Of a stretch of 49,941 bases of DNA, positions 24,762-33,912 are shown in pieces. Positions within the stretch are counted from its first letter, which is position 1. Every line of letters starts with the position of its first letter. The stretch comes from a bacterium Unc6 (GTDB lineage: Bacteria; Omnitrophota; Gorgyraeia; Velesiimonadales; Velesiimonadaceae), in assembly GCA_013626165.1 (NCBI GenBank), contig NDHX01000011.1, positions 1-49,941 of the forward strand. Reading direction: 5' to 3'. A program made the position numbers and the translations under genes. The notes beneath the pieces are model-generated. The model was not told the origin of the DNA. It ran no database searches and saw only the letters and a program-made list of their open reading frames with translations.

Positions 24762-24849
24762 GGAGAGGTGGCAGAGCGGTTGAATGCGGCGGTCTTGAAA
24801 ACCGTTAGGCTAAAAGGCCTCAGGGGTTCGAATCCCTTCCTCTCCGCCA
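24762..24849 (+). tRNA. tRNA-Ser (anticodon TGA)
   Basis: Acceptor stem GGAGAGG/CCTCTCC, long variable arm typical of serine tRNA, T-loop TTCGAAT and encoded CCA at 24847-24849. The anticodon loop CTTGAAA carries TGA. The last four bases (GCCA) are also the first four bases of a 30-bp repeat bounding the following cassette. Confidence 0.95.
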
Positions 24850-24875
24850 TTTTTGCAAAGTAAAAATGGCGGTGT
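24846..24875 (+). repeat. Left 30-bp inverted repeat of the R-M cassette
   Basis: Begins GCCATTTTTGCAAAG at the tRNA-Ser 3' end and ends AAAAATGGCGGTGT. Its reverse complement matches 27268-27297 at 29 of 30 positions. Each copy is also nearly self-complementary (gccattttt ... aaaaatggc), so it can fold into a hairpin. Confidence 0.8.
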
Positions 24876-25074
24876 CTTTTAGTTAAAGTCCGAACTTTTT
24901 TTGAGCAAAATCCACTTGCAGGTTTTGAGTAATCCCGCCCACCCCAAGTTCCGCCTTGCTGGACAGCAGGCAGGCAATAATAAGAAACTCCTTAATTTTG
25001 TTGTCTGTTTTATTAAAATTTGTTATCATACAATTACATAGAATTATGGCAGAACAATTTAATGTCATCAAATT

Positions 25075-25284
25075 ATGGAAAATAAACAAGAAAATAAATT
25101 AGAAAAAAATAAATTTTTTTGGCTTAAACTTGAACTTTCGCAGGACGAATTCGCAAGGAAAGCGGATATTCCCTATACCACGTTTACCAAAGTGGAAACC
25201 GGCATAATCAAAAAACCATCGGTCTTCGTTATGGCAAAGTTAGCCAAAGTGCTTGGTGTTAATATTGAGGATTTAATAAAGTAG
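25075..25284 (+). CDS. Xre-family HTH regulator (controller protein type)
   Basis: A 69-residue DNA-binding protein with a Cro/C1 helix-turn-helix: LELSQDEFARKADIPYTTFTK (about residues 19-39) and the closing GVNIEDL segment. Small Xre proteins directly before restriction-modification genes commonly act as controller proteins timing methylase and nuclease expression. The methyltransferase starts two bases after its stop, supporting one transcript. Confidence 0.9.
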   Translation: MENKQENKLEKNKFFWLKLELSQDEFARKADIPYTTFTKVETGIIKKPSVFVMAKLAKVLGVNIEDLIK

Positions 25285-25286
25285 CT

Positions 25287-26441
25287 ATGGCGAATACAAA
25301 AAACCTAAAACTATTAGACAATATTCAATTTATTTATGAGATTGCTTTGGCAAGGTTGGAATTACAATCATTTAATCCCAATCTAAAAGTTACAAACGAT
25401 TTTAGGGAATTTGAGCTAAAAGACGATGGCAATTTTGATGTGCTAAAAAGAAGACTCGCATATTTTAAGACAATAGATGGTGATTATTCCGATTATTACT
25501 ATTTACAAAAATATAACCAAACAAAATCGGTTAATCAGTATATAACTCATTGGATTTATCCGTATAAAGGCAAATTTCACCCCCAAATGATTAGAGCATT
25601 GATGAATATTATAAAAATCAAACATGGCGAAACATTGTTTGACCCGTTCGTTGGAAGTGGCACTGCTGTTTTAGAAGCCCAGATATTAGGGGTAAATGCA
25701 ATAGGATTAGACATAAGCCCGCTTTGCGTTCTTATTTCAAAGGTCAAAACAGAATCTGTTGATGTTCTTGATGAAATTAAAAAATATAAAGATTTTTATC
25801 TCTTCAAAAAAAATGGTAGAGAGCCAAATGATGAAAGGATAAAAAATTTTTACAAGGTCGCTGAAATGATGGCACATAGCGACCAATCAAGAAGAGGCAA
25901 AATTTTTGAATCTTCATTTGTTAGCGACGCCTTAAAAATGATCGCTTCTGTTGAAGATTATAGCAATGCGATTAAAAAACATAATTTAAAAATAGGCAAG
26001 ACAAAAATTATGGAGGGCGACGCTAGAAAAATAAACTTGAAAGATGAATCTGTAGATGGAATTATTACATCTCCGCCATATTCTGTTGCCCTAAACTATG
26101 TTGCTAACGATGCTCACTCATTAAAAGCGCTCGGATACGATTTAGACAAAATAAAAGAAGACTTTATTGGTGTTCGCGGGACCGGATTAAATAAATTTGA
26201 ACTATACGACAAGGATATGGAAAAAGCGTATAGTGAGATGTATAGAGTTTTAAAGAAAGATAAATATTGTGTTGTGGTTATAGGAAATGTGACTTTTCAA
26301 GGTCAAGAGCTAAACACTACTCAAAATGTAATTGAGTACTGTGAAGAAATAGGTTTTAAGACCATTAAGAAAATGGAAAAAATAATCTACGGCTTATATA
26401 ACGTTATGCAAAAAGAATATATTTTAATTTTTCAAAAATAA
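25287..26441 (+). CDS. DNA methyltransferase, SPPY type
   Basis: A 384-residue SAM-dependent DNA methyltransferase. Motif I is DPFVGSGTAVLEA from residue 119 and the catalytic motif IV is SPPYSVALNYV from residue 262, an arrangement common in N4-cytosine (and some N6-adenine) enzymes. An HPQMIRALM segment before motif I is probably motif X. It is followed after one base by the endonuclease gene, so it is the protecting methylase of this cassette. Target unknown. Confidence 0.92.
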   Translation: MANTKNLKLLDNIQFIYEIALARLELQSFNPNLKVTNDFREFELKDDGNFDVLKRRLAYFKTIDGDYSDYYYLQKYNQTKSVNQYITHWIYPYKGKFHPQMIRALMNIIKIKHGETLFDPFVGSGTAVLEAQILGVNAIGLDISPLCVLISKVKTESVDVLDEIKKYKDFYLFKKNGREPNDERIKNFYKVAEMMAHSDQSRRGKIFESSFVSDALKMIASVEDYSNAIKKHNLKIGKTKIMEGDARKINLKDESVDGIITSPPYSVALNYVANDAHSLKALGYDLDKIKEDFIGVRGTGLNKFELYDKDMEKAYSEMYRVLKKDKYCVVVIGNVTFQGQELNTTQNVIEYCEEIGFKTIKKMEKIIYGLYNVMQKEYILIFQK

Positions 26442-26442
26442 T

Positions 26443-27105
26443 ATGGAACAAAATAACTACATAAAACAATTAGAAGAAACAATTTCAAAATTTCTAAAGC
26501 CATTAAAGGATATTTCTTTCCCCATTGCTATAAAAGCCATTTCCGGACATGAAGTTTTGGCTTTTGATAAAAATGGCCGAGAGGACAAAGAATTATTAAG
26601 CCGTCTTACAAAAGCAATGGATATCGCAGTTAGAAATGCTTACAAAACAGGAATTTCAACAGCAAGACCAAATGAGGTTGGCAATCATATAGAGTCTTTT
26701 GTAAAAGACGCGCTCAATAACATAGGCATGAAAGCGGAAATCCCCCTAACTTCAAATGGTAGACACCAAAGCGCTGGCTACCCAGATGTTTTTATTAAAG
26801 ATATTGATAGTAGAATAACATATTTAGAGTGTAAAACTTATAATCAAAAAAGTATCGGTTCATCTTTTAGGGCATTTTATTTTCAACCTTCCGAAAGTTC
26901 TAAAATTACTCACGATGCACGGCATTTAATGGTTGGTTTTGAAATAGTTAGAGAAAAACGAAATGGAAAATCTATTTTTGTCCCGATTCATTGGAAACTT
27001 TATACGCTTGAAAAAGTGCTGGTACAAGTTAAGCATGAATTTAACGCAAGCAATAAGGGAATGTATAAACCCGAGGCGTTATTGGCTGAAGGTGGAATTA
27101 AATAA
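26443..27105 (+). CDS. Type II restriction endonuclease, PD-(D/E)XK
   Basis: A 220-residue protein with a textbook catalytic core: P114-D115 in GYPDVFIKD, then E129-C-K131 in TYLECKTYN. E84 in the preceding helix (NHIESFV) may complete the metal site. Size fits an orthodox homodimeric type II enzyme. Together with the upstream SPPY methylase and Xre protein it forms a complete restriction-modification operon. I cannot name the target sequence or a close relative. Confidence 0.85.
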   Translation: MEQNNYIKQLEETISKFLKPLKDISFPIAIKAISGHEVLAFDKNGREDKELLSRLTKAMDIAVRNAYKTGISTARPNEVGNHIESFVKDALNNIGMKAEIPLTSNGRHQSAGYPDVFIKDIDSRITYLECKTYNQKSIGSSFRAFYFQPSESSKITHDARHLMVGFEIVREKRNGKSIFVPIHWKLYTLEKVLVQVKHEFNASNKGMYKPEALLAEGGIK

Positions 27106-27267
27106 AAGAATTTGCCGCCAAATTGAATAAAGCTCGGGGTTCCGCTAAAAGTGGGATTAGAAAAACCCCGAAGTGGAAGCCTACGGCTTCACTACGTGGC
27201 AGGCTTGAAATCGTCCCCCAGTAGTAGAGGCTTCGTTTCACTACGGGGTAAAGATTTTTTCAAATAC
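27106..27267. repeat. Palindrome-rich end of the R-M cassette
   Basis: Several hairpins follow the endonuclease gene: CGGGGTT (27135-27141) with AACCCCG (27164-27170), and GTGGAAGCC with GGCTTCAC around 27173-27192, then an imperfect copy near 27225-27250. The first could serve as a terminator. GC content is clearly higher than around it. Confidence 0.5.
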
Positions 27268-27297
27268 ACACCGCCATTTTTGCTTTGCAAAAATGGC
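27268..27297 (-). repeat. Right 30-bp inverted repeat of the R-M cassette
   Basis: Matches the reverse complement of 24846-24875 with one mismatch and contains the 13-mer CCGCCATTTTTGC in direct orientation at 27271-27283. It is followed by a spacer with caatagaacaatagac-type words reaching 27350. Confidence 0.8.
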
Positions 27298-27462
27298 AGA
27301 GCAATTGAGCAATAGATAATAGAACAATAGACCGAAATTGCCCAATTGCGGTCTAATGCTCTACTGCCCAAGGGATGGGCTAATATGCTTGGGGAGAGAA
27401 CAAAGAAATGTACAAACCCAAAGCATCATTATCCGAGGGTAAAACTTTTAAAGGAAGAAAAT

Positions 27463-33463: not shown

Positions 33464-33604
33464 TTAATCATCCTCTTCTTAAAGTTGGGAAATTTTCACC
33501 CCTTTAGCGAAACTCCGGGCTTTGCTCGGCTTGGCGGCAAATTCCTTTTACAATTTAACCAACACCTTTAATATTTTCTCGGATTGCTTTCTTTTGTTTT
33601 TCTG

Positions 33605-33812
33605 CATTTTCTTGTAACTATTCAGCCCCATAATAATGATAGCGTAATAGTTTAGTTTCTCCAAAAGCTAGGTTCGGTGTACCACATTTCATTAAACCTG
33701 TCAAGCACAATTTTTGGGAAAACTTAACTCGATTCATGGTATAATTATCCTAACACATATCTCAGGTTCATGTCAAGTAACATGCAAGCAGGCTGAATAG
33801 TTACCATTTTCT
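33605..33812. mobile_element. MITE-like element with 14-bp TIRs and 8-bp flanking repeats
   Basis: Exact terminal inverted repeats GTAACTATTCAGCC (33614-33627) and GGCTGAATAGTTAC (33791-33804) enclose 163 bases without an ORF. The octamer CATTTTCT occurs immediately outside both ends (33605-33612, one base from the left repeat, and 33805-33812), as a target-site duplication would. The right end lies six bases from the 3' end of tRNA-Ser(GCT). The size and layout suit a non-autonomous transposon; no parent transposase is known to me. Confidence 0.65.
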
Positions 33813-33818
33813 AATAAC

Positions 33819-33912
33819 TGGCGGAGAGGCTGGGATTTGAACCCAGGAGCCCGCTTTGAGGCAGGCTAATCGCTTAGCAGGCGATTGCTATCGGCCACTC
33901 AGCCACCTCTCC
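33819..33912 (-). tRNA. tRNA-Ser (anticodon GCT)
   Basis: Minus-strand serine tRNA with long variable arm. Acceptor GGAGAGG/CCTCTCC, anticodon arm AATCGC-CTGCTAA-GCGATT giving GCT, T-loop TTCAAAT and encoded CCA at 33819-33821. Confidence 0.95.

Follow-up and report, generated by a model that had tools for sequence, protein, structure and literature searches.

A restriction-modification cassette at a tRNA-Ser 3′ end in an Omnitrophota genome, the probable cargo of a large serine recombinase element

Genes and repeats at the locus

The window, by which is meant the whole analysed stretch of 49,941 nucleotides from a bacterium of the phylum Omnitrophota, contains a tRNA-Ser(TGA) gene (24762-24849, plus strand, located by ARAGORN) whose 3′ end, ...CTCCGCCA, closes with the hexamer CCGCCA. 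Downstream on the same strand lie genes for a C-type helix-turn-helix (HTH) regulator of 69 aa (25075-25284; PF01381, 2.4e-09), an N6/N4 DNA methyltransferase of 384 aa with DPFVGSGT and SPPY motifs (25287-26441), and a putative PD-(D/E)XK restriction endonuclease of 220 aa (26443-27105), the second of these supplying, with its match to PF01555 (9.8e-16), the DNA methyltransferase of a Type II restriction-modification (R-M) system. The original prediction, made from the DNA letters of this stretch, had placed a regulator, a methylase and a nuclease between two 30-bp inverted repeats, and its description of the locus is borne out: the repeats (24846-24875 on the plus strand and 27268-27297 on the minus strand) are identical at 29 of 30 positions and enclose the three open reading frames (ORFs), among which there is no integrase; the left copy opens with GCCA, the final four bases of the tRNA; a 13-mer, CCGCCATTTTTGC, recurs as a direct repeat (24844-24856 and 27271-27283); and each 30-bp copy contains a hairpin (z -6.4 and -4.1). 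An inverted match of 30 bp has a chance expectation of 0 in 100 dinucleotide shuffles and can be extended here to 49 nt at 84% identity (24842-24890/27253-27301), while the genome-wide search suggested along with the prediction retrieved the 30-mer, in 1.27 Mb, at the two cassette ends only.

No family was returned for the 220-aa protein by sequence searches of Pfam, NCBIfam and the PDB. Its relatives have in common the motif GYPD...YL(E/D)CK, which follows a PD-(D/E)XK nuclease pattern, and an AlphaFold2 model (mean pLDDT 81.5) compared with the PDB by Foldseek came closest to SfiI (6.8e-04), SwaI (1.5e-03) and EcoRV, at a modest TM of ~0.4. Conserved motif and model point to a putative restriction endonuclease. 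Outside the right repeat, a plus-strand frame at 27408-27450 (MYKPKASLSEGKT) weakly resembles the endonuclease C-terminus (MYKPEALLAEGGIK) and might possibly be the remnant of an older R gene.

Large serine recombinases at tRNA ends

A family of large serine recombinases (LSRs) is encoded in 87 of 380 Patescibacteria genomes (E <= 1e-80) and, within the window's phylum, in 48 of 285 (E <= 1e-50). In 42 of the 51 copies examined first, the LSR gene ends at most 300 nt from the 3′ end of a convergent tRNA gene, an arrangement whose chance expectation, estimated from tRNA density in these loci, is roughly 1-2%; among the other copies, four run off the contig and one (L136) has a tRNA-like end missed by ARAGORN. 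The target tRNAs include those for Ser, Gln, Ala, Trp, Asn, Arg, Leu, Lys, Val, Gly, Ile, Asp, Cys, Phe and Pro, and elements of the window's phylum, found chiefly at Ser and His tRNAs, share the layout.

A full element reads, in order, tRNA-CCxCCA, an inverted repeat, the LSR gene directed into the tRNA, a second copy of that repeat, TGGxGG with an adjoining arm, cargo, and a distal arm ending in CCxCCA. The repeat flanking the LSR gene, detected in 35 of 39 loci, is 33-140 bp long and mostly 97-100% identical between copies; its usual starting point is 5-6 nt before the tRNA's end, and it recurs just upstream of the LSR gene, where it ends in the complement of the element's own tRNA end (TGGCGG for Ser, TGGTGG for Ala, TGGCTG for Gln) and is followed by a conserved arm with the consensus TGTnTnTTngACnAAgTTcGAAC. 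Where the sequence reaches far enough (26 loci), the arm region has a distal inverted copy in 24, at a distance of 2.6-8.2 kb from the tRNA; most of these copies end in CCxCCA, the copy counted in L020 and L116 being an inner repeat rather than the arm proper. Within one family, the LSRs of loci L107-L181 seem to differ in the tRNA isotype to which they are matched, and the inverted repeat includes the last six bases of the tRNA concerned.

The 29 elements that could be delimited span 2.6-12.4 kb, and R-M genes abound in their cargo. By Pfam matches, their 97 scanned cargo proteins include nine N6_N4_Mtase, three D12 and one C5 methylases, alongside nucleases of HpaII, ScaI, MjaI and BfiI types and OLD/AbiEii-like ATPases; by strict motif, a methylase is present in 8 of the 29. 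Relatives of the LSR were absent from IMG/VR viral contigs, and open-access full texts, the literature covered here, yielded no description of the family, which, large as it is, is apparently undescribed.

Attachment arms of the cassette

A profile of the arm was built from 33 LSR-bearing elements, the window not being among them. Scored over all window positions on both strands, its best hit is 24867-24906 (38.5 bits against 18.3 for the next), which remains first when the core is left out. This segment consists of an inverted core, TGGCGG, and a P arm, the combination found on the tRNA-proximal side of cargo in the LSR family, and the likeness continues past it, where the window's TTTTTTTGAGCAAAATCCACTTGCAGGTTTTGAGTAATCCCGCCCACC resembles L069 and L197. 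Since the best hit of the profile falls on the left repeat, the 30-bp repeats are better regarded as the ends of attachment arms together with a short palindrome at the site of the LSR module: the left copy consists of GCCA from the tRNA, a 17-bp palindromic stub, TTTTTGCAAAGTAAAAA (24850-24866), then the inverted core TGGCGG and TGT of the arm. Comparison with relatives indicates that the stub occupies the position of a 1.5-1.8-kb recombinase module, and the hairpins are best read as a small palindrome standing in for it. Similar stubs occur at the host tRNA-Ser(GGA) (L200) and in L194. Between the repeats there is neither an LSR nor a coding remnant of its catalytic part, and the inverted repeats that bracket an LSR gene beside the tRNA in the family are represented by this palindrome alone; because the defining LSR was looked for and is absent, we call the window copy a derivative and not an intact member.

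The right arm (27237-27276, minus strand) ends in the core CCGCCA and is partly decayed. It is the third-best hit of the full profile (14.5 bits) and becomes weak without the core, ranking about 160th in the window; its first 24 nt resemble the left arm, and it resembles the right ends of L019, L020, L021 and L023. Across the 285 genomes, the arm pattern gave 12 hits, three of them in the host, against one for a reversed control. In the tail of the cassette lie GAATTTGCCGCCAAA (27108-27122, plus strand), a 5′ stretch of the recombinase gene with codons for EFAAK that recurs at the right end of cargo, and CTTGAAATCGTC (27204-27215, plus strand), a second piece of the same stretch (LEIV), both being parts of the LSR gene 5′ region KEFAAKEKLEIV. 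Pieces of this type also bound cargo in L019, L020, L021 and L023. As a general feature of the elements such spacers were rejected: only a subgroup of the 29 has them, within 350 nt of the left end in 7 and of the right end in 9, and some of the right-end cases look like chance.

The paired inverted repeats, with no transposase between them, would also suit a unit of MITE-like or IS-like type that depends on a DDE transposase. The repeat, however, has just two copies in the genome, both at this cassette, the insertion lies exactly at the tRNA end with no pattern of target-site duplication, and the arms match those of LSR elements, so that we hold a transposon of this kind to be extremely unlikely. 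Nor is a transposon-type repeat needed to explain the symmetry, for the attP sites of serine integrases consist of half-sites, each about 25 bp long, in a pseudo-palindromic arrangement (PMC3783163), and mutually inverted arms are accordingly what an LSR element should have. The right hairpin is nevertheless the inverse of the left, and simple attL/attR duplication does not account for this inversion; gene conversion between the ends, or an inversion, is a possible cause.

Relatives of the cassette in other phyla

Within the window's phylum the nuclease occurs in 2 of 285 genomes. Its closest relatives lie elsewhere, 90-94% identical, in Nealsonbacteria, Portnoybacteria, Berkelbacteria, one more Patescibacteria MAG and one Thermodesulfovibrionales MAG, and the DNA of the cassette is 84-91% identical in these relatives, identities that mark a recent transfer across phyla. 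More distant nuclease relatives (about 50-60%) are spread over many phyla. No relative of the nuclease was found in IMG/VR viral contigs, nor in plasmids or phages. A distant relative of the R-M system in G102 (L017, 8792-10274) sits directly 3′ of a tRNA-Gln gene and has an extra gene of 135 aa between M and R.

In the Thermodesulfovibrionales contig (L020), the same R-M system is bounded by tRNA-Ser(TGA) on one side and, distally, by a copy of the tRNA end, CTCCGCCAGTT. Adjoining the tRNA is an LSR of 482 aa with Resolvase, Recombinase and Zn_ribbon_recom domains, its last codons running into the tRNA. The element thus pairs the window's cargo and the window's tRNA with a recombinase, and by this comparison the class of the mobiliser is that of the large serine recombinases. 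Six relatives share the gene upstream of the L020 element (72-85% identical) and have tRNA-Ser(TGA) with the element absent, and one of them continues, CCGCCAGTTTAC, like the right flank in L020; as the downstream gene is not common to the relatives, this empty-site comparison is supportive only. For the window's own host, the only species of its family in the genome set, that set contained no relative with an empty site. Most of the sequences compared are contigs of MAGs, often broken at these elements, and contamination is possible for short contigs such as L018 and L021; the L020 contig (47 kb) and that of the window (about 50 kb) both carry host genes on either side of the element.

The L020 element also bears on another explanation, a classical tRNA island of a tyrosine integrase that has since been lost, with the 13-mer as attL/attR. 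Insertion at a tRNA 3′ end and the direct repeat CCGCCATTTTTGC are what such an island would leave behind. There is, however, no tyrosine integrase among the cassette ORFs, in the relative where this cargo occupies the same tRNA the recombinase is of the serine type, and the arms again match LSR elements; we regard a tyrosine-integrase island as very unlikely.

Other sites in the host genome

The host has four tRNA-Ser genes with a CCGCCA-type end, and all four are marked by the LSR family. Besides tRNA-Ser(TGA), which carries the R-M cassette, tRNA-Ser(GGA) on contig C1 (L200, 1389-1530) is followed by stub and arm, CCGCCA-GTTTTTGGCAATGCCAAAAAT-TGGCGG-TGTTTTTTTGAATAAAATCC, with no cargo, and is possibly a site from which cargo was lost. 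A third LSR-less stub at a tRNA-Ser gene, CCGCCA-TAAACCACGTAGGGTTTA, is found in G098 (L194). At tRNA-Ser(CGA), on contig C5 at about 77-86 kb (L205/L206), several R-M systems follow one another amid spacers and arms of the family, namely an EcoRI-like nuclease with a D12 methylase, an Eco57I-type methylase with a 222-aa ORF, and a ThaI nuclease with an N6/N4 methylase; recombinase-gene fragments were seen between these cassettes, and an arm-CCGCCA-repeat site inside the run. The fourth mark is a relic in the window itself, 3′ of tRNA-Ser(GCT) (33503-33548, minus strand), which matches the cassette tail at 37 of 46 positions (E 2e-08). The relic spans 33503-33912 (minus strand), and its start, GTTATTAGAAAATGG, resembles the LSR-side repeat of relatives, and a candidate zinc-ribbon-like peptide at 33630-33725 (minus strand) was set aside as not significant (E 0.16).

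These sites bear on a simpler account, that the left hairpin is the intrinsic terminator of the tRNA-Ser gene, the right copy a chance or REP-like duplicate, and the R-M genes arrivals by unrelated means. A hairpin with a T-rich tail does stand immediately 3′ of the tRNA, and at the host tRNA-Ser(GGA), where there is no cargo, a hairpin of similar form precedes TGTTTTTTT. Against this, the 33-element LSR profile has its best hit in the arm that follows the hairpin, the 30-mer is unique to the cassette in this genome, and in another phylum the same R-M system is the cargo of an LSR element at tRNA-Ser(TGA), all of which makes a mere terminator improbable.

Origin of the cassette

The repeats that bound the cassette match the attachment arms of the family, which is why it looks like the cargo of a mobile element that is missing its recombinase. 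We put the probability at about 0.87 that it derives from an LSR integrative element at a tRNA CCA end whose recombinase module has been lost, a reading based on comparison of sequences. By analogy with A118-type integrases, the arm-CCxCCA-repeat site would be attP and the tRNA end attB, and the LSR would recombine arm-CCxCCA sites with the tRNA end. After insertion the module would have been lost, perhaps because its long perfect inverted repeat collapsed to a short palindrome. The 17-bp palindrome would then have taken its place, so that tRNA end, palindrome and inverted core with arm now make up the left 30-bp repeat, the right one combining the other arm and its core with an inversely oriented version of that hairpin.

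The original prediction of a selfish, non-autonomous cassette mobilised in trans, or bounded by targets of a hairpin-recognising recombinase, is partly upheld. An R-M system of the selfish type, non-autonomous and with a recombinase target sequence at the tRNA, is indeed what the locus holds, and the cassette is bounded by that target; hairpin recognition gives way to a better reading of each repeat as a double-stranded P arm ending in the tRNA core CCGCCA. Present mobilisation in trans finds no partner in the host genome, where no intact LSR of the family was detected: the only LSR-like gene (contig C6; best match, 25% identity) is distant, interrupted by an internal stop and has no tRNA nearby, and was rejected as the mobiliser. 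An LSR arriving from outside could still act on the cassette ends.

Comparison with known systems

The cassette shares with C-regulated Type II R-M systems the gene order C, M, R and the combination of HTH regulator, N6/N4 methylase and PD-(D/E)XK-like nuclease (putative here), and differs from them in a nuclease that belongs to no named endonuclease family. Its likely vehicle is an LSR element, by which R-M systems would be moved from one phylum to another among small-genome bacteria. According to published descriptions, serine-recombinase elements insert within genes, whereas tRNA 3′ ends are typical targets of tyrosine integrases (PMC5704250, PMC4383910), and the LSR family breaks this rule by occupying tyrosine-integrase territory. 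If its enzymes work as proposed, they would form a set specific for different tRNA ends, in which the matching of LSRs to tRNA isotypes could allow specificity determinants to be mapped, and orphan defence cassettes beside tRNAs would be accounted for by repeated loss of the recombinase module.

Elements of the A118 type are the nearest mechanistic parallel, as the LSRs of the cassette's relatives likewise have Resolvase, Recombinase and zinc-ribbon domains, and a short shared core is common to both; attP half-sites there measure about 25 bp (PMC3783163), against roughly 29 bp of core and arm here. Unlike A118-type elements, the family uses many tRNA isotypes, flanks its LSR gene with inverted repeats of its own, encodes the end of that gene across the junction into the tRNA, and keeps a complete inverted arm-core-repeat site inside the element, while the window copy differs in addition by having no LSR.

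Integron gene cassettes offer the other parallel, with a recombinase gene beside a recombination site, much defence cargo beyond it and, in the host array at tRNA-Ser(CGA), successive R-M cassettes. As a tentative and rather doubtful generalisation, the family may be a serine-recombinase counterpart of the integron. Its LSR module, anchored at the CCA end of tRNAs, would retain an internal attachment site that is still intact, and defence cassettes, mainly R-M, would pass as whole units among Patescibacteria, Omnitrophota and Nitrospirota, with CCGCCA-type cores and fragments of the recombinase gene as the points of exchange; in the window, one such cargo unit would live on without the recombinase. 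Integrons, in contrast, rely on a tyrosine recombinase (IntI) and attC sites, whereas the family has a serine recombinase and no known attC, and its cassettes are separated by pieces of the recombinase gene.
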